Shown here: positions 1,016 through 50,800 of the stretch, piece after piece | How the letters are laid out: every line of letters starts with the position of its first letter | Numbering within the stretch: position 1 is the first letter of the stretch | Assembly: GCA_036362985.1 (NCBI GenBank) | Contig: JAYGXS010000001.1 | Span: 50,351,713-50,415,712, forward strand | Direction: 5' to 3' | Source of the DNA: Ligula intestinalis | Lineage: Eukaryota; Platyhelminthes; Cestoda; Diphyllobothriidea; Diphyllobothriidae | Length of the DNA stretch: 64,000 bases | Position numbers and translations under genes: made by a program | Notes under the pieces: generated by a model | Databases searched by the model: none | What the model was told of the DNA's origin: nothing | Seen by the model: only the letters and a program-made list of their open reading frames with translations

Positions 1016-4000
1016 GTGAGTCGTTAGTTTTAGCTGTCTCTCGGTTTTAGGCAACAGTGAAGATGTCAAGATTTTTCTATGGCATTAATATAGGTGTGCT
1101 AAAATCCACTTGATGACGGAGGATAATCGTTTTCAATGCGGCGAGTCCGTTATAAAAAAATATTTTTGCGACTTGAACTACGCGTTGACCTTTATATCAC
1201 AAGGAAGTGCTATACTAAAAACCCATAACCTATAAAAACATACTTATGAAGAGGTTCTGGTGGGTGTTTATAAACAATCCTCCAGACATTCGCGTTACGG
1301 CGGGGGGCATTGTTTCTGCTATTGGCATGTTGGTGCCAGTATAACAGATAAATGGGCTCTAATGAGAGGACGGGATCAACCAATATGTTAATTAGTGGGA
1401 TGAGGATGCCTTGCTCATGTATTTGTTTGTGATGAAGCGGCTATGCACCACGTTCATCGCACACGTTTTTCCCATATCCGCCGAGCTCCATTGCGAAGCA
1501 ATTATCAGGACGACTGGCTATGGACGTAGACGCAATGACGGGCAAAACTAAAAGGCATGTATAGACCCGGCGAACATGACCTAGCAAATAATCTCACAGA
1601 AATCAGTACACAAAAAAGTGAGGGCTTGCACCTTAGATGAGTGGGAGTGCTATGGAGTCTGCAGAAAGTAAGAGACATTGTAGTCTGCTCCAAAAAAATA
1701 ACTCATTTACATTTAAGGTCGAAACTTTCGAAAATAGGAGGGTCAGTGTATCTTGATGGTTTTAAACGGGCCAAACGTATTGTTGAAAGGAATGCTGGAG
1801 AAACTGGCACAAGGACTGACAGGCATGAAATTGCATTCATCTCATGCCGATGCAATCGAGGAGACCCACAACCACCCCAAAAGCCGGGTACATTCGCGAG
1901 TTTCATACAAAATACGCGCAGAGTTACCTAGGCCTGCTCTAGCTTTATTTTACTATGTAATTTTAAAACTCGCTGTATTTGCATGGATTTAAAGATTTGA
2001 GAAAGATCGGAATTGGGAATTAGTTCGGTGGTTGACAAAATACAGCCATCTTACGTGTATCGAACACAACTTGGTTCTCAACTCCACACAGAACCGGTTA
2101 TAGTCTGGGAGTCTCGGGTCTCACATGAACCGGATTCTCATAAAGATCGCTTCAATAAGAAGCTCTTACGTCTAATTTTGATTTATACTGCACGTTTCGG
2201 CTATTTAGTAACCTTTCAAGACATAACACACGGCATGTCGTGATACAGTCTCAAAGCGCATTTTATTTGTAGTTGGAATCTAGACGATGCACAGCAGCTG
2301 CGTCGATTTCACCTTTTCGTTCCTCGTCCATTAAACAGGCCTAGATTTGGAATCGGGCATACTTATATGGGTCCTACCGATAGCCTCAGGTATAGGAACC
2401 CTCCTTCCCGTAATGCAGGTGACCTGACGCTGAATTGCATAAATGTTAAATATCCTATGTCCGAACCCTAAAATTATGCAAACTAGACCATAAACATGAC
2501 CCTAATCTTAACGCTTTACCTCATTTCCCTGAAATTTAACGCAAATCCACCTACCTTACTGAATATTTCCTTTTCCTATCCCGCCGAGGAGCCCTATCAG
2601 ATGAAATGGACAATCAAGGTCGATGTGCGGAAACTCAACTTTAGTGAGACACTTGCTCCAAAAGAGGACCTAATTATCCCACTGACTGTCAAGCATACAA
2701 GCCACGACTAGTAACGCGCTGTGATATTTTCATGTATGTGATATCCTTTATACTGCTGAGTTCGCTAAATTGTCATAAGGAAGAGTATTGCAGTATGGGT
2801 CTCATTCATTGTTCACTCTCCCTGTTCGAGTCAGTCGAATTAGAATAAGGTCGTTTGCGAATCCAACCTCAGTTAAACGCTTGCAACAGACATTTACGGC
2901 AGTAGTCAAGGTCTAAGTCGACATTAGTGTGGCAATACAGATACATGCCATGAGACCACCTGGTTCTTTTTCTGATTGAAAATGATGGTATTACAGTCTA
3001 TTTTAGGCACAGTCGTCCGATGGTTTGACTGCCTCAGACAACAACATCCACCGTATGCTCCATGGAGTGGGCAAAACACCGGTAACTTTAGAGTTTATTC
3101 ATTTATAATGAGATGGATTTACACCGCATCTGCAGCATCTTCTTTCACACGCATTACTTAAATAAAGTTAGGATGACTGAATGTGGGCATTGGTGTATCG
3201 CAGGGGGTTATATAAGTTTAACCCTAGCAACTGCGATCTTCAGGCCCGGTTCTTTAGGAGAAGAGAAGTCATGGGAGACCACGAAACCCCCCTTCGCGCT
3301 GGTGTTTCACACCAATCCTAAGGATACATTAATTGGCTCGTGATATCATATAAAAACAGAACCACGCCCCCTCTCCAACTAACACACACACACAAGCTTT
3401 CCCAAGACCAGTTTCGCCCGGAGTAGCGTTGTTGTTGAACATTTGTTGTTCCCTTTTACAGAGTCAGGCAATTTGGCCAACTCCCTTCACTCTTGACGTT
3501 GTGTATCCATTGCTGAGGTTTGTGCATCGTTTATTCTTTAATATTACTGCTTAATAGTACCATACTACCTTGATAGTTGTTACCGTCGGGTTCGGACGCA
3601 CGTGTGACTGCTGGATACAGAGTATGAGAGGTCAAGAGGACGAACTAGCATGCTTGACCATCTGACTCTCTAACGCTGGTGTTAGACGACGCGTTGGCCG
3701 GTGCATTCCCCGAGTGAAGAATTGTTTTGGCCAAATTAAGCCGCATCACCGAATATGGATTGGGCTTGTCATTGCACTTGTTTGTAGACTGGGACCCGTG
3801 AACCATGACTCAAGTACCTCATGACTCACGTGATTGTCATCCCTCGTGAGCATGTCGGCTTCATCAAACTTGAATATGTGGCCGGGTCTCGTCGAATGAG
3901 CGGCTAGACGAGTAGCCGCGACAACTGGGTCAAGAAGGGGGGAAGGGGGGAGACGGACAACTGGCTCTCCACCAAAACGTCCCTTCACGGGATTTCATCT

Positions 4001-17800: not shown

Positions 17801-20800
17801 AGTGGTTGCAGTTTTTCGGTAGACACGTGCCAACTGCTCACAAGCGTCCAAAAACTTCCGAAGGAGATATGACATCAGCTGGTAGATTTTCCTATTGGAA
17901 GAAATCAGCATTCAAGAGCTTACCATTATTTGTGATAAGATAAGCAAATAAACTATGAAGGGGACGTATCAAAGACACTTGAGACATCCGAGCGCAAAAA
18001 TTAGAAATGAAAGGCACAAGCGGCGAGAAAGTCCTGAAACTAATGTGTTTTAAACGTTTTCAGTGCCTCACTTTCAGAGCAAGCGTTTGCTTACACCACA
18101 CCATTTGTTTCAGACTTATGAAACACCACCAAAAACAAGATTTCTTGTTCTGTCAGTATTTCTTTTGGAATACGGACTTTAAAAATTTTGTCGTATAAGC
18201 ATACAGTACGCTTTAAGTTAGAAAAGATCCTTTGTATTATTTAATAAGGCATTTATTACTTGGCGGACTATCACACATATTTTGCATTTTACGCACAGCA
18301 TAACTGAAAATTGTAAAGCTTTTTGACCCGTATCCACATTAAGGGGAAGGTAAATGAGTGTGGAAATTTAGGTTAGTTCTTCAGTGTCTTTTAATCAATC
18401 CTTCAAACCTTCCATCTACTTGAGCCACACTGTCTCGCACCAGTACCTTAATCAATGGGTCTTCATCGTAGTTCTAGGTAATTGACCAGATTTTCTTATT
18501 GGCCAAAATTTATTTATCCAGCAGGGACCGATTGACCTCAGTGACCTATATGAATAAATTACGTTCAACATTAGAGCCTCCAAAACCTGAGATTCGAGAT
18601 GGCTGGTTGAAGATTATTAAGTAATAAGTGGTCATCCCGACCTCCATTGTCTTCATGAAACTCCCTTAGCTGCATCTTATCTTCACTTACGAATGGATGC
18701 ACAGCGATTCATTAGCTTATATAAGCAAATAAGCTCCGTGTGGGTGTAATACGTTAGGAATATGCCAGGGCGACATCAGTGGCTGGTGGTAGATTTTTCC
18801 ATTTTGCATGCTTCGAGAAGATTATGTATATGTGTGCGCCCGTCTCTAAGAAAAAAATATCCGATCTACGACGATAGAGTGGCAAGTAGCGAGGCCCTGA
18901 TGAATTTCGGGTCAATGATGTTCCCCTGTGCTGGACCATAGGCACCATGCATATGCACGGGCGCGCATTTTTGTGTTTCCGGCTCCAAGTGGCGGTTGGG
19001 GTTAGGATTGACTGGATAAAGGCAAATATACCCGAAACCGGTCCATATCAGTCTACCCCGAAACACCCTCACGACTTATATATAAAGTATATGTGTCATC
19101 CCATGGAATTTTAACCTAGCTTCTAGAAATTTTATGGAATGGAAAATTATGCTTAGGTTGGGCTGTAATATTACATATCATGCAATATGTACTAAAGAAA
19201 AATGTGAGTATTAGACTTGACGATGTATGAACTAAAGTTATTCTGTATGAATAATCCCAACATATTTCAGTCAAGCCAGAATGTCAGCTTTTGAAGGAGC
19301 TTCCTTTCGGTCAACTGCAAAAACAACCTTAAGTAAAAAGTGGCCACGTAAATAGTATGCATTCTGCCATTTTCGTTCCGTGTCCTGATAAATTTGAATA
19401 TACTTATATAAAACATATACAAAATATTGTTTCTGGCGTTCATATAATAGCTTATTAAATCTTCCTTACATTCTTTACTTGAGCAAAAATTATCTTAAGG
19501 TTTTCAAAACCTTTTGAGCTTCCAAATAATTTTTAACTCGGTCTTCCGCTACTTTTTTTTCCGGAGTTTTAAAACTAAAGGCCGTACGCATATCGTACAG
19601 GGGGAAATTACGTTCTTCTTAACCTTATTAGAAATAAGTCATACAGTGCTCATCAAGTATTTTAGTAAATTTGAAGTACGTTAATTACTTTATAAGCTGC
19701 AGTAAATAATGGATAGATATAATACTGTATGAATAAATATTTCAGTCTTAAAAATCAGGTGTATTCCAAAATTCCATTGAAAAATTCCATAGATAATTTG
19801 GCAAGTGTACCTATATTTCCGATAAATTCTCGTCAGGCCTCCACATTTACATAAGTATGTGGGTTAGTAGAAAAAATCGTGAGGTTGTAAAGGTGGATGG
19901 AAATAAGTTGCGATCAGTAGTCTAATCAGCGTCAGAGGAATACTAGACGCCGCGAATGGTAATTGTCTGCAGGCGTCTGAATTAACGAAGTTCGGTCAAA
20001 GTAACTGCGGTGCCTTTGCGAAACTCTTTTGGATGCAAAAGATCAATTTGAGTAACCTAGCAGCTGGCAGCTGGAAAGAAGCTCGTTCGACCGCCGGTAT
20101 TTTGACATGACTGAGATATTCTTTCATTATGTTACATAACAAATAATATTAGGCCAACCTTAAGTAATCTTTTTCCATCAAAAACGTTTTTCAGAATTTC
20201 CGTTAATATTTCATAAGATAGCGCATCCACCGCGAATTATTTACCTTCCTCAAACAAAATTGCCAAAATAAGACCAGGCGGGTGTTTCATATTTATTTGC
20301 TGACATAACACCCTATTTAGCGAGTTCAGTTAGTAAGACAGTCTATAAGATTCCATAATTTAGATTCTGATAGTAATCTATTCATTAAATTGCGGTTTCT
20401 AAATTTGTCCGAAAGGACAACATGAAGCGGTCACATGTAAAATTGCGTTTCCAATTCATTTCGATGACTATCTTTAGCTATGGTCAATAGAAAAATCAAC
20501 TTTTCACGTCTTTAACTGTATTTATTAAACATTCCAACTACATGTTACCATATTCTTTGTCTTAAATTTGCGAAAATTCCCATTGAAAATTTCAGAAGAT
20601 GAATTGGCGAACATACGTTTGTTTTCGATAATTCTCATCAGGCCTTTACATTTATAGGGTAATTCCTTTTTTCTACTAACCCGCATAGTCCATTTACTTA
20701 ATTACCATATAAATGTAAAGGCCTGATGAGAATTATCGAAAACAAACGTATGTTCGCCAATTAATCTTCTGTATATTCTTTGTGCTTCATTTGCTCCAAA

Positions 20801-23800
20801 ATTTTAAAGGGAAAATAGCGGATTAACATCTCGATCAGGGACGACAGTTTTCGTTCCAGACTGTTCACGGGAAGCACCTGGCAGCATATTGGTCACTCAA
20901 ATTCATATTCAACCATAAAATATCTAGCGTGCAGAATGCAACACATAATTCACGAAGGAAGATTTGAGTTTAGCCTTGGTCGTAAATATGCTTTTGGTAG
21001 TAAGTTTTATACACTCAAACATTGAAACAGATTTATCACTAAATTTAGACATTGATTCCTGCACTGATTAAACAACATGATTTTGAATCTTATTAGGAAA
21101 ATGCTCGAGTGAATGAAGACCTTTCAGATAGTCGAAGAATGACACTAAGCGCGGAGCAGGATGCACAAGACCTGAGAAGCTTTCTTCTTAGGGCAGAGGA
21201 AGACAAAAAGCGACTCGCACAAAGAATTGAGAAATTAACGGCCAACGGTAACCGTTTGACCAATCGTCTTTTAAATTCTCAATTCTCTGATGGGAATGTT
21301 TGAAACCTTACTCGTCTTTTTCCTTATATGCCATCTTCTTTCTTCAGACTCTGCCGTCTTCTTTCAGGTTTTTGTTATCTCTAAAGAAAGCTTGGTGTGA
21401 TAAATATTTTTTACTGTCGGTATTTGAATGCGCCTACAATTAGGACTGGATGTTATCATCAACGACAGGACATTTTGGAACCTCGCCTACCATGGCCTTA
21501 GATATTTTATTATTATTGTAACATACAATTAATTTAAACGATCTAATGATATAATATCAAAAAAGACTGCTTTATAATTTTTTAAACAATATTTTCCACG
21601 AAAGCTTGTATTTATTACTCGACTGATCCTTATCTACGATGGAAGGTTTGGGTTATTCGAGCTGCGTGTATTATTATTTGCTTAATATAAAAAAATCTGA
21701 GGGAACTTGCCCTTGAGATTTAGAATGAACATTTTAAACCTGCTTCTTATAACCCGAAAACAGCAAAATGTAAGTCCTAGGCTGGAATTTTACAATTATC
21801 TCTTATAATTCTAAACCCAATTATAAACATAACATTGGAAATTTCGATCCATGACGGGAAAGGGTTGAATTCGCTAAGATAGGGAAAATGTTCACACAAC
21901 ATGTTTCTTACTAGCAAAATGCTTTTAAACAGCATGACTGTTCACTTTGGGTGGGCAGAACATCCTGTCAGAAACTTAAAATTATTTCAACCAATTTTCC
22001 CACCTTATTTGTAATATACACAGCTTCTCAAAAGCGTACGTATTTTTATACCCTAGTATGTACCAACTGGATTGCTTAGGGTGGATTTTAGAAACCAAAA
22101 ATGCCAAGTGGTAGACAAAAAATTTTGATTTCAAAGGAATTGCTTTTACACCGACAATGCGATTATGGAATACTGGTTGATTTGCATAAAATGAAACTCC
22201 TAAGTGCATTTGGTATGAAACGGAAATAAGAACTGCCTTATCTCTTGGGCCTTGCATTCATTTCCATCGCGAATATGGTAAATGTTAAGGCTTACTTTGC
22301 GGTTAGCTCAACATTTGAGGTTTGGGTAAGATTTAGGTTAGGGTTCCGATCGTGATTCAGTAATATTTACCATTCTTGAATTTGTGGGGAAATTCCCATT
22401 TCCTTATCTCACCGTAAAATCTAGAAACTTGCCAATTGTGTGACTTTCGTTTACCTTATTTCGAGGACTTCAATATGAAGAAAAAATGAGAGGCTAGATG
22501 CCAAATTAACACTGAGGTACCGAAAAGAGGACATTTCATTGGACAGAATGTCTATGCACGGACTTCTAGTCATTTATTTTGACAGCAAACTTTTTATTTT
22601 TAATCCTTAAAAATTTAGCACTCATGCGACCTCATTTTGGAAAACATATATTGCTTGAATATTATCCTCAAATATTTAATAATCATCAAAATCTAAAATA
22701 CGGGGTGAGTTTGACTTAGTTGATAGTCGTGAGCACTCCACCAATGACCGTCTAGAAATCCTCATATGTCTGCCGAAAGATTGTGGGCCTCAAGATCTCA
22801 ATTTCTGAACATGTTGCACGGGATTCAGTACTGGATTATAATCTCAGATCTATATGGATTGTGTAAGAATGTGGCTGGCTATCGACCTCGCAATAATTTA
22901 AATTCCTTCATTTGACAGCTACCTATAGGTATTCCAGCCTACGATGCCAGTGAACTTGGAACACCCTTAATCTATTCAGGTACGACCAGATCGAAGGTCA
23001 CGACTTCCGTGCAACACTGAGCAAAGTTATATTGACCGACTAAATGTGTATGCGGGAATCACTTACTGAGTTTGCATATCATTTACTAAGGTTAATATTC
23101 CACATTCTATGTGCAGGTGACTGAGATCTGCCAGCAGTCGAGGAACAACCCCCCAGTTTTATTTCTTTTGCAATACACTTCTGGAATTTTGTTTTTCTAT
23201 TTGCGTCCGCAGAACGTGCATTAGTGTTAGAAATTGAACGCCTCAAACGATTAACTGGTACACGCGGACAGAAAACGGCAGGGAAGAGAATCAGCCAACT
23301 AGATGAGCATATCGCAGGAATCGAACATGATCGTGATTACTGGCGGTCGCAGGTAGAACTACTCACGCATATGCTGGCCTGTTCCTCCCTCGTCGGAAAG
23401 AACGGCAATTCAAAAAACCTGTCCAAAAGTGCATCTGAGAAGGCACTTCGTTCAGGCTCGCTCACCTCCAAGACCAGAAGGGATACCCAAAAGTCCAAGG
23501 TGTTTCTTAATTTCCATACATCTTGCTTAGACATTAAATTATTACATAATAACGCATTTTATACTACTCGTCACTAGATTGCAGCTTGTGAATATTACGT
23601 GACATTCCCGTAGTCGATGAGGAACTTTGGCCCAAATATTCATATCTTATTTCGGTCATTACTTTTAGACATTTGAATGTACTGATTTACTCTGAGAGAG
23701 TAAATAATTCCTGAAACAATAAAATAACTTAAAGTGAAATTAGTCAAAATTTGTTTAACCTAACCCAAAAATTGAGCACGTTCTTATTTGTATTATCAAA

Positions 23801-35800: not shown

Positions 35801-38800
35801 GACTGAAATATAACACTCAGTTCCTAGGAGTTTGGCAAATTTCAATAATTTGATTGAATCAGTTGTGAAAAATGCTCGACCTCGGTGGGAGTCGAACCCA
35901 CACAGCAGGAAAGGTTTTTGCGCAGCCAACGCTCTACCATTTAGCTGCAAGGCTCAGCGTGCGCCGCGAATTTAATCACAGTTGGATCGATTTGTTTGCC
36001 CAGTTTTACTGCACGTATGGAATCCACCAATGCGGCGCAGTAAGCTGACTGTTAGTCTGCATTTCCTAAGAAATCATCTAGGATCCATCGGATGGACTAC
36101 TAGACTAGCCTTGTTGTTAAGGTTTCGGCAGCTTTTAATAATTCGGCAAACAAAACAACCAAAGTGTGGCTAAATTTACGGCGCACGGTGAGCCTCGTAG
36201 CTCACAAGTGTACCACTACACTCCTCCATGACTCTATCGAGGTGCTTTAATGCGAATAAGGTTTAACCCAAACGGCTGTGATCATCCAGGCCCAGTTCCT
36301 TAGGAGAGGAGAGAAGTTTTGGGAGGGCAAAAGCGTTAGGAACAATATATTGTGTACAGAAGAGTTAGGAGGAAGTTGCCACTTGATCTGGCATGGCGTT
36401 CGATCGTGAGGGCCGTGTGAGAGTGTGGGGTCAACACTGCGGCCAAAAACGCTGCCTGCGTCCGCCCCGCTCGGGAACAAATCTGGAGTTAGGCCCAGTA
36501 GCAGTAGCCCCAGGCGGCCGCCGAAAGCTCTCTTTGTGTCGACAGCCCTGATGGTGCCTGGTTGGACCGCATGAAGTGGGCGCACCGGCGTGGGCGGTCC
36601 GTGTCTCGTGCGCAAGTTTGCCCTGAGTGACCTCTTCTGTGTTAAGAGGGCGTCGGGCAGCAGCGATCACTACATCACCCCACATGCGGAATTGTTTGTG
36701 GGAACGCATTTTGAATGAAACTTGCCCTGTCCACCCGTGTTGGTTCAAAGCACCTAGAAAGCGGCCTGTTTAGTGAGGCAAGAAGGTTTGACAAAAACAC
36801 TCAATTACCTACTATGTTTGGTTGAGATGGTCATGGAATCCGATATAGCTAACTGACAACGTCGAATAAGTCCGAAATGGCCTTTCGATTTACCCGAAGT
36901 TGTCGATAACTCTCCGGTTAAAACAAAACAGGACCCTCAATTTCTCCTTCCGCAGTTACATTGCCGGTGTTGAACAACTCCCTCGGAGGGGCGATATATA
37001 CAGTGGAAGGCTGAAACTAACACCAAAAGCTGGCCATGCACTCTGCACTTATAAAATTATCTATGAGATATTTATGAAAGATAGCTGACTACTTTTGTTA
37101 ACTCGGGAACAATGAATTTAACAGGATGTCGGAAAACAGATAGAAGTAAGGGCGTCGGCAGTGTGAGTTTCTTGCGCAGCTTGCTTTAGGGCTCGCCAGT
37201 TGTCTTAAAGTGCGCTCCATCGGGCAGTAGTTCCCTCTGTCTAAGTAATAACTTCAAGCTGACTCTCAAATTCTTTTAAATTTGGATAGCCAGTGAAATC
37301 GTACCCCTTGGTAGATGAATATCGATATGGAGAGAAGCATTTACCGGGCATCAAAATATTACCAGGGAAAATAGGTCAATGGGTAGGATAATTTTATGCC
37401 TGACAGTTATGAATCAGATGGTCTTCATATTTCGTGTGGTATTCAGTGTTGGATTAAAAATAATTTACATAAGCACGTTTATAACTGAAAATATCGGTCC
37501 GCCATCGAAAGGGAGAATTCGCCAACAGTCAAAACGTTCGGCTTACAAAACGCTGAGAGAAGTCTCAGTGTGTTAGCTCTCACAAACTGTAGACTCCTTT
37601 ACATTCTCTTATCTGAGGAACCTCAATTTTGTGTGAATACTTTAGCATACTTCAGAATATTCGCTAATTTTTTTAACCCTTAACTAAATGCTACCGTATT
37701 TGCCACCCACTGCTTGCTCATTTACATCGTCCGGCCCTCAGTATTCTAAAATAATATCATTCATTGATACTATGAATGCAGTAGTAGGACATTTGTTAGT
37801 AATTTAAATAGTCAACTCATAAAATAAAAAGATGCATGGGCAATAATAAGGCAAAAAAACCAAATACTGGCGGTGGGAGTTTCCTGGACGCTAATTTTTA
37901 TTGAGTCTTATAAGCTGTCCCCATTAAGTTACTCGGCCTGCTTACTCAGCATGTGCATATGTAAGGCTCTTTTAGAGTCAGGAAGATTACGAGGAGCCAA
38001 TAATTGTTCAAAGAACCTTAGGCTCTCACTGATTAACTACATTGACTGATATCTCCGCCAATTTTATAGTCTTTAGTCGTTTCTATTTGTATCTTTTGGG
38101 CTAAGACCAAAGTTTTACGGAAGGAAAAACTCGATAGATCGAAAATTATAAACAGACCCCAATGCAAACGGTGCAGCTAATTGTTCCCTTTTAATTTTTT
38201 TTCCAACTTGATTCTAGAATCCTTTTTTGCCTTCTTCTAAAGAGAGCCAATGAAGAGGTTGCTGATTTACGACAGGAATTGGAAGGGAAGCAACGACGAA
38301 TTGAGGAGGTGGAGGGTCGGATGAACACCTTAAAAATGCAGGTTGCGGAGATGGAAAATGCTTTTGGCAGATCCGAAACGAGGGTCGACGAAACTTCTCA
38401 GCGTCTGCAGATGGAACGTGAGGAGACTGCGCGACTGCAGTTCCAAATAGATTCGATGACGACTGAAAGAGATAAGTTACAGGCAAGAAGAACCCATTTC
38501 TAGTCCTTTTGTGAAACTTAAGTGTTCCCTTACAAAGGACCCTATAAGCTCTGCTCATCAGTGGACCTAGAGACTGAGATTTTTACCCGCCTTCCAGGTT
38601 AAAATGAAAATAAGCCGGAGATAATTACTGGGAACAAAGTGCCCATGTCAAGAAACTGCACAGGCGAAGCATTCAGAACTAACCCAACGTTTATTTCTAA
38701 AACCTCCAGCGTTTACATATTTGACTATGTTTAGAGGGAGATTTGGAAGGCTAGTTACTTGTTTTCATTGAGCTGTGGCAATGGGATTGCTTCTGACTCG

Positions 38801-47800: not shown

Positions 47801-50800
47801 ACGCCTTCAAGCTACAGTGGCCAGGATACCCCCTAAAGACTTGCTCTTCGTCGCCGGAGACTGGAATGCCAGGACTGGCCCGTGCGATGAAACCTCGAGA
47901 CACGTCATCGGAAAATACGGATTGGGCCAACATTGCGACCGCGGAGAACGATTGGTTACATTTGCTGATTAAAACCATTTCTTCGTTATAAACACTCGTT
48001 TTCAACACCCCCATCGGCCGTTCCTAACATGGTATTTAAACGATGGTCGAAAGGCAAACTAGATAGACTACATCTTAGTTCGTGCAAGGTGGACCACCTC
48101 AGTATCCGACAGCCGATCGTTTCGTGGTGCGGAAGTTGGGTCGGATCACGTACTGTGCCCGCTTTAAGCTCCGTTTGTCGAATCGAAGTGGGAAACTGCC
48201 CCCAAAACGTGTCAACGTTATGGCACTATCACACACAGAAACTCGTGTAGCGTTCAACGAAAGTCTCACTGCACGGATCCCAGATCAATCCACTGTTTGC
48301 ATCGAGCCTCCAGATGACGTCGATAATGAAACTTCGCCCGATATTTAGTGGCCACACTTAAGAGACGCGCTACAAATTGCGATGAATTCGAGCTTGCAAC
48401 AACAGGTAGTACCGAGGAAGGACTGGATCTCCACAACCACCCTCCATCTATCGGCACAAGCTAGAATCGCTTGGTTGTCAAACTCAGAGAACTACCGCTC
48501 ATTGAGACGCCAAACTATGCGATCAGCAAATGCGACCGTCAGAACCATTGGACCGAGTTAGCTGGCTCTATGGAATCAGCTTCAAACTCTGGTAACTTCC
48601 ACCAGCTCTATTACCTTTTACGTAAAGCATCAGGCAAATATAAACCGCCTTGCACTACCGTTCGGGATAACTCGGGTCAAGTGATGACTGATATGGCTGG
48701 CAAAATCGATCGATGGCGAGAGCACTTCAGCAAGCTACTGGATCCGCCTACAGCTATCAACTGGAATTCCATACGGTAGTGACTGCGAGCCACCTATGAG
48801 ATTTGAAGTGGAATCGGTATTACAACGATTAAAAGTTCGAAAGGCAGCGCATGAAGATGGTATCCCAGCAGAAGCCTACAAAACTAATTGTCCTGATTTG
48901 ACGGAATCAGTACATGGACTGTACTCGACTATATGGACTACCGAAGTCATCCCGACTGACTGAAAAAAAAAAAAAAAAAAACCGGTACCGAAGCGCGATG
49001 ACAGGACATTATGCTCAAACTACCGCGGCATCAGCCTCATCGATATAGCCGCCAAATTGTTTGCGACCATCCTTCTCCGTAGATTTTCGACTGAGCGCAA
49101 TTTTCGTACTCGTCCTAACCAAGGAGGATTTCGTCCAGGTAGAGGATGTATTGACCAGATCTTCATACTACGCCGCAAACTAGAGCACAGACATCAAAAC
49201 CAACAGGTCACCACCACCTGTTTCATCGACTGCTTGACCGCCTTTGATTCTATCGACAGCGAAGCTTTATGGCAAGTCTTGCTTGCTAATGGTCTCCCAC
49301 CAAAGTTGCTCAATCTAATCAAAGCTTGCTATTGCACAACATCAGCTCGAGTAAGAACCCTTGGCGAAGAGTCAACTTCTTTCCCTCTGACTTGTGGAGT
49401 TCGACAAGGGTGCCCTCTTTCTCCAGTTCTCTTCAACTTCTTGATCGACTGGGTAATGCATCAGTCAATTCTACCTGACAGTGGATGTTAAATCGGCCTC
49501 GAATTCAGAGTACCGGACCTGGAATATGCCGATGACATTTTCGTGCTCGGTAAAACTCCTCAGTCACTACAGCCAACGCTAGACAGAATCACCAGCTTCG
49601 CTGCAACTGTTGGTCTGACAATTAATGTGCGCAAGACGAAGCTCCTGACTACGTATCTGGGCACAGCACAACCATTGTTTATCAGCGGTCAACCCGTTGA
49701 AGAAGTTAGCTGCTTCCGCTATTTGGGTTCGAATATGCTAGCCAATGGGCAGGTCAAAGACGAAATTAAGAACTTAATCGCGCAGGCTAGAAATGCATTT
49801 AGGCTGCTAGCCAGACCACTCAGATCTTGCTCAGACATCAGTTTACGCACTAAGCTGCTGATATATAAAGCATCAATCAGACCGGTGTTAGTATATGCCT
49901 GCGAAACATGGCCAGTGAGAAAGGCAGACATCCTATCGCTCGAAGTGCGAGCGAAAACTCGTATTCCAGGAATGTTTATTGGTAAAGGAGACATATGGTC
50001 GATAACTGGCAAAAAATGTATTTTTTTCTGAGCTTTCGACCTCTTACAAGAGCCCATCGTCAGAGATGGAGAAACAGTAACAAATGTGAAAGCTACTTGA
50101 GGCGTGTGTACAATAATTAAAATTGTGAACTAGCAGAAAATCAATAATTGTGTATGCTGCCGTCTTGCCACTGAGGGCTGTGCTAGCCTGATCCAGTAGG
50201 CAAGATCGACAAGTTGGGTGGAAATATTTACAGAAGTAGAGTCGTCAACAAAACAAGTAATAGTTATGGTGGGAGGGATGGACAATTAAAAAGGGCATAT
50301 AAGAAGAGAAGGAGGATGAGAAGAGAGGGATTATGTAGGCACGTTCAAAATTTTAATTATTGTACACACGCCCCAAGTAGCTTCCCCATTTGTTACTGTT
50401 TCTCCATCTCTCATGATGGGCTCTTGTAAGAGCTCGAAAGCTCAGGAAAAAATAAATTTTGTTCCAGTGATCGACCATATGTCTCCTTTGCCATCGCTCG
50501 AAGTCTTTGACCGTTGGTGTCTTCGACGCCTCTTAAGAGTATTCTGGCAGGATCGAATCTCCAATGTTGAGCTATACCACAGATGTTTCAAACTACCAAG
50601 TCTAACATCGTACATCCAGCATCGCCGATTGCAATGGTTTGGCCATGTTCTGCGCAAACCATCTATGGACCTCTGCAGATTGGTCGTGAACCCTTGTCGT
50701 AGTGCAAACTGGCGATACCGACAAGGCGGTCAACTGAAGACATGGCTCAGCACCGTTAAGTCGGACATTGAACGGATGGGCCTCGTAACCGTTTATGGCT

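Follow-up and report, generated by a model that had tools for sequence, protein, structure and literature searches.

Within a 64,000-nucleotide stretch of the Ligula intestinalis genome (contig JAYGXS010000001.1, positions 50,351,713 to 50,415,712; hereafter the window, numbered from its first letter), two hammerhead-ribozyme-like motifs lie inverted at 20593–20771, which raises the question whether the pair belongs to a host gene or to a mobile element. Taking element identity and anatomy together, the pair is almost certainly, judging from its letters, an insertion of about 212 bp (about 20561–20772) of an abundant Penelope-like element (PLE), the parts of which are given below; labels such as L061 denote loci in the window's own genome (644 Mb), and pseudo-LTR stands for pseudo-long terminal repeat.

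20550..20560, no strand: left target-site duplication ATATTCTTTGT, an exact 11-nt direct repeat with 20773–20783, its edge uncertain by a few nt
20561..20664, minus: left PLE copy, antisense 3' part of the pseudo-LTR plus tail, 98.1% over 108 nt (20557–20664) against the L061 pseudo-LTRs
20561..20592, minus: tail, on the left arm only, corresponding to the open reading frame (ORF) start in the element (16-copy alignment; reading frame in L061)
20606..20644, minus: minimal hammerhead motif of the left arm, core spelled, model R1 (built from genome copies) 87.3 bits, predicted cut between 20609 and 20608
20610..20623, minus: stem III segment AACAAACGUAUGUU of the left arm, self-complementary at 6/7 pairs
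20663..20664, no strand: head-to-head junction of both copies with a 2-nt overlap (left copy end 20664, right copy start 20663, against L061)
20663..20772, plus: right PLE copy, sense 3' part of the pseudo-LTR without tail, 93.1% over 116 nt (20663–20777) against L061
20720..20758, plus: minimal hammerhead motif of the right arm, core spelled, R1 86.1 bits, predicted cut between 20755 and 20756
20741..20754, plus: stem III segment AACAAACGUAUGUU as spelled in the right arm
20773..20783, no strand: right target-site duplication ATATTCTTTGT, partner of 20550–20560
19768..19876, minus: older, diverged single PLE pseudo-LTR copy, 70.6% against the L061 3' end, other copies 69–88% over parts

An earlier note on this DNA had described inverted 72-nt arms that differ at two non-core positions and each spell a full core on their own strand, with a diverged relative nearby, and this description was borne out by the repeat and core readouts. 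The arms (20593–20664 and 20700–20771) are 97% complementary across a 35-nt spacer, both mismatches (20707 against 20657 and 20763 against 20601) fall outside the core, and each arm reads GGC-CUGAUGA-GAAUUAUC-GAA-AACAAACGUAUGUU-C-GCC on its own strand, with the hammerhead core C3–A9, G12–A14 and C17 flanked by stems I and III in both. Each arm thus spells out what sequence identifies as a minimal type I hammerhead core of the element. The relative is the older minus-strand copy at 19768–19876, within which a decayed hammerhead (19788–19848; R1 72.2 bits) has A13 replaced by G and stem III broken at two pairs; the adjoining stretch 19853–20058 recurs elsewhere (L057, 70%) and is perhaps another old repeat. 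The insert itself consists of two 5'-truncated 3' pseudo-LTR copies lying head to head between 11-bp direct repeats, one arm bearing the tail and the other ending at the shorter 3' boundary, and it looks recent because its left and right arms are 98% and 93% identical, respectively, to the element elsewhere.

Comparison of the region with its own genome gave at least 88 matches (best 40 of 3199 candidates scored), and the pair is therefore not a chance occurrence. Alignment of 16 copies showed both arms to be common to all, with about 30 extra bases on one arm. A palindrome script then covered 55 of the first 60 loci (L008, L010, L015, L019 and L041, which repeat other loci, and L061 upward lay outside the scan) and found 25 inverted pairs, whereas a separate comparison of 27 palindromes included L007, L012 and L018, which had failed the script's mismatch limit, and left out L038; L020 entered neither. 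By tally of the script scores, 23 of the 25 pairs (for example L001–L006 and L022–L036) bore the tail on just one of their arms, none on both and two on neither, one of the latter being L014, where a tail with indels is visible by eye in the alignment. The first query contained the tail, so that L001–L020 are skewed towards at least one tail, not against two. Direct repeats at the edges ranged from 0 to 14 nt (11 nt in the window), reaching at least 7 nt in 21/25 palindromes and at least 8 nt in 20/25, and when left and right flanks were shuffled, repeats of at least 7 nt occurred on average in 2.64 and at most in 7 of 25; the direct repeat of L038 may consist of element letters. A short target-site duplication is thus a regular feature of these copies, as it is of PLEs in PMC3846280, where it measures 8–10 bp. 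The arms were separated by up to about 2 kb in the longer fetched stretches (n=20).

The parent element was recognised at loci where more of it is present. At L061 an ORF of 852 amino acids lies between direct pseudo-LTRs, with the motif in each at a spacing of 2658 bases, and L062 has the same layout with an ORF of 870 amino acids; pseudo-LTRs of this element accordingly occur both in direct orientation and inverted with the tail on one copy, and in the reading frame of L061 the ORF begins with the tail. The encoded protein includes a telomerase-like reverse transcriptase (RT). ORFs of the longer palindromes were listed in two stretches, L033, with a 502-amino-acid ORF between the arms that matches RVT_1, and L027, where each strand carries the 3' part of this ORF, which has no Pfam match alone. 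The palindrome at L027:2014–4066 is so extended that inverted copies of this 3' segment fit within it. In comparison with L061 and L062, the ORF is reached on at least one side in 11/27 palindromes, and a genome search with it gave at least 86 matches (best 85 of 47,902 candidates scored), the weakest listed at 1.3e-41; no relatives were confirmed in prokaryote and viral contigs. The C-terminal region has a GIY-YIG-like pattern (Y375, C379, C381, Y385, G387, T389, R396, H400 and E457 invariant in 26 aligned sequences).

How, then, did two partial copies come to lie head to head? We favour, by a modest measure, the joining of two separately primed complementary DNAs (cDNAs), because each palindrome has one tail and unequal inner breakpoints. 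On this view, reverse transcription of element RNA would have begun at each of the two ends of a chromosome break, once at a start point that gives the tail and once at one that does not, and the two unfinished cDNAs would then have been joined head to head to give the palindrome. The PLE protein has been reported to cut and extend both DNA strands, the tail corresponding to the interval that separates two RT start sites, and the start site did not differ between strands (PMC11167929). A tentative second candidate, which we regard as possible though less probable, is that a single cDNA of the same element snapped back and primed itself: overlaps of 1–6 nt at 15/27 junctions, a count without chance control, would suit such an event, and self-priming on an antisense template is favoured in PMC3846280. 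However, if one arm were copied from its partner, a tail would be expected on both or on none, contrary to the 23/25 pairs with exactly one, and 12/27 junctions have no overlap.

The motif was followed through the element with a covariance model built from 20 genome copies. Within the same PLE group it was found in all 20 loci chosen from 86 places, three of which were partial, shortened or masked. A second PLE lineage served as an independent test, since the copies behind the model came from the first group; here 18 of 20 loci chosen from 74 matched at E<0.001, while L100 reached 0.14 and L089 had no match. The second lineage places the motif after the ORF and keeps CUGANGA, GAA and GCC in position in 15/20 loci; a core base is gone in L094–L096 and the 3' part in L100. 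Sharing of a hammerhead-type core by the window insert, its parent element and the second PLE lineage of the genome is thus supported. Across 113 motif matches in the 74 loci searched (masked L067 left out), core columns were 95–100% conserved apart from A13 at 88% and C17 at 84%, where C mostly gives way to T, and two close subfamilies have an identical core but a different N7 and a different length of loop II.

The stems were compared in two alignments, and stem III in particular is kept by compensatory change. In the model-fitted alignment A3 (73 distinct rows) both sides had changed in 8 cells, a number reached in 0/500 shuffles; a control slid by +2 gave 9 such cells, but with pairing at 16%. 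In A6 (second lineage, 7 rows, MAFFT) stem III was 97.1% paired with a score of 0.276 (2/500 shuffles as high), and in all 7 rows the two bases at its centre, which are direct neighbours, make a standard pair, with four pair types among the rows. Neighbouring bases can do so only across two molecules or two motifs, and this pattern therefore points to a double hammerhead. By family, stem III of the second lineage reads AACAAUUGUU, AACGAUCGUU, AACAGCUGUU and AACAUAUGUU, all perfect palindromes; the 11-mer of L084 pairs at 5/5 positions around a middle base, the 14-mers of the window and of L059 self-pair at 6/7, and two further rows at 4/5 and 3/5. Four second-lineage families, at L082:261–316, L098:324–380, L083:419–475 and L095:342–397, each have a different perfect 10-nt stem III palindrome. 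In the parent element, from printed work and this symmetry, the hammerhead, repeated in direct pseudo-LTRs, would cleave RNA made of several units, most likely in the form of a double hammerhead with the self-complementary stem III in common.

Several results weigh against this reading of the motif and the element. Rfam hammerhead models were unmatched at gathering score in the window and at E≤10 in 19600–21000, and they also miss the motif in 17 element loci, in searches lacking a known PLE hammerhead as positive control; other Rfam matches in 19600–21000 and these 17 loci (microRNA-like on the hairpins, small nucleolar RNA, small RNA and others) were all below gathering. The earlier note had set its ribozymes against the outcome of no hammerhead model hit, which is literally what was obtained, but the models fail alike at the 17 element loci. 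Non-core arm columns are mostly 89–97% conserved, so that the core is not clearly more conserved and conservation alone says little. Both L061 pseudo-LTRs (677–736 and 3335–3394) and L075:136–195 have A for G12, a change that should stop cleavage. In A6, which has few rows (n=7), one of five measures, pairs with change on both sides, was matched by 112/500 shuffles, and the 2-bp stem II (71.4%) has its first pair broken in 4/7 second-lineage rows, a weak support. The predicted dimer energy is ordinary (134/300 shuffles as low), as is the gain over two monomers (80/300 as low), and the case for a dimer would rest on the symmetry of the stem III sequence. In published work, PLE hammerhead mutants left in vitro insertion unchanged, RNA ends at the PLE cut site were not found and hammerhead cleavage required protein (PMC11167929). 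The GIY-YIG assignment has no Pfam or PDB profile match and its sole pointer is the invariant motif pattern; the C-terminal domain modelled alone was poor (predicted local distance difference test, pLDDT, 37.9), and the structure-match list, filled by RT domain matches, held no GIY-YIG chain.

These findings bear on two further proposals. The first, which we consider rather unlikely, keeps the ribozyme fold and gives it a part in insertion: two-ended target-primed reverse transcription would use the fixed tail-bearing and tail-less starts once each on template RNAs held together by stem III, which would explain the one-arm tail, the differing inner breakpoints and the persistence of the stem III palindrome despite changes of its letters. 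The second, more improbable still, is that the letters are hammerhead-like without ribozyme function and the segment serves ORF start or RT binding only. The overlap of the motif with the ORF start in the 5' pseudo-LTR, the missing Rfam match and the comparable conservation of flanking arm columns are in keeping with it; against it, the core stays constant between close subfamilies while N7 and loop II length vary, and stem III of the second lineage is compensated, including its two adjacent middle bases.

The earlier note had proposed that folding could switch a CEP135-like pre-mRNA between a long hairpin and two self-cleaving ribozymes, which would make the pair a regulatory switch of the host gene. 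In its favour, both cores are intact and the insert appears to have coiled-coil ORFs of a single plus-strand gene on either side, but similar palindromes lie at 26 other compared places and the recent look of the insert, set out above, also speaks against it. A core on each strand was confirmed; that the pair is a feature of the gene is not supported, as it is one insertion of a dispersed retroelement. Nor can there be two ribozymes, for a transcript of either strand holds one ribozyme and one antisense arm, and since the motifs face opposite ways, a tandem double hammerhead is impossible from one window transcript. In the fold predictions for the plus strand the hairpin reached -113.5 kcal/mol and the fold with enforced ribozyme pairs -38.4; for the minus strand the two values were -116.0 and -39.5. 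The energy model gives the hammerhead core no credit, but the gap of about 75 kcal/mol should far exceed what such a credit could contribute, and the scar ribozyme should therefore be masked: facing its antisense in a near-perfect hairpin, each is most likely silent, and the hairpin may be a source of double-stranded RNA if the intron is transcribed. We accordingly regard the switch as very unlikely. Last, a DNA transposon or miniature inverted-repeat transposable element with 72-bp terminal inverted repeats, although suggested by inverted ends, direct repeats and many copies, is barely credible and was rejected for its unequal ends, of which just one has a tail, and for the RT encoded by the internal ORF, arm spacing and inner breakpoints differing between copies besides.

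Both the retroelement scar and the minimal ribozyme motif in it are of kinds already described. Among Penelope/Poseidon-type PLEs, Adineta vaga Pen2/Pen2a, Anolis PAc and Drosophila virilis Penelope are alike in an RT ORF with a C-terminal GIY-YIG-like motif (putative in the present element) and, in PMC3846280, in pseudo-LTRs, head-to-head inverted copies, an optional 31-bp tail on one and a 9-bp target duplication; a hammerhead at the ORF start is a further likeness (PMC11167929). The window copy differs in being only about 212 bp long, with both halves truncated within the pseudo-LTR, and in its tapeworm host. Minimal type I PLE hammerheads have been reported to cleave as dimers (Lunse, Weinberg and Breaker 2017 and Cervera and de la Pena 2014, as cited in reviews), and they resemble the present motif, according to PMC7761336 and PMC6155905, in minimal core, weak or self-complementary stem III and pseudo-LTR location; the window motifs are opposed, however, and the present motif is a candidate ribozyme predicted from sequence. 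Metazoan retrozymes (non-LTR) are likewise small repeats with a type I hammerhead (PMC7229834), but they are direct tandem repeats of about 170–400 nt without RT, whereas the window arms are inverted and their ends are common to an RT-coding element. Inverted pseudo-LTRs, one-sided tails, target duplications of about 9 bp and minimal hammerheads taken to act as dimers are thus already in print for PLEs; among the literature matches listed, no paper described hammerheads in tapeworm PLEs. PMC7761336 (2020) called PLE hammerhead activity and in vivo role a mystery. As a single locus the window copy is ordinary, but its genome offers many natural insertions of the one element whose junctions, tails and target duplications can be read, together with several hammerhead families differing in stem III, and both the formation of head-to-head inserts and the purpose of PLE hammerheads are therefore testable there.

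The CEP135-like identity of the surrounding gene was not confirmed: the ORFs match coiled-coil families below cut-offs, and one of them, searched against the PDB, had a single weak match. Several coiled-coil ORFs at 23125–61898 on the plus strand would fit the exons of a single long gene of that type. A non-LTR type RT in two pieces split by a stop lies at 48964–50031 on the plus strand (RVT_1, 1.7e-24 and 1.9e-07), and a tRNA-like segment at 35877–35954 on the minus strand (30.6 against gathering 29 bits, E 0.021) is the sole Rfam match in the window at gathering.
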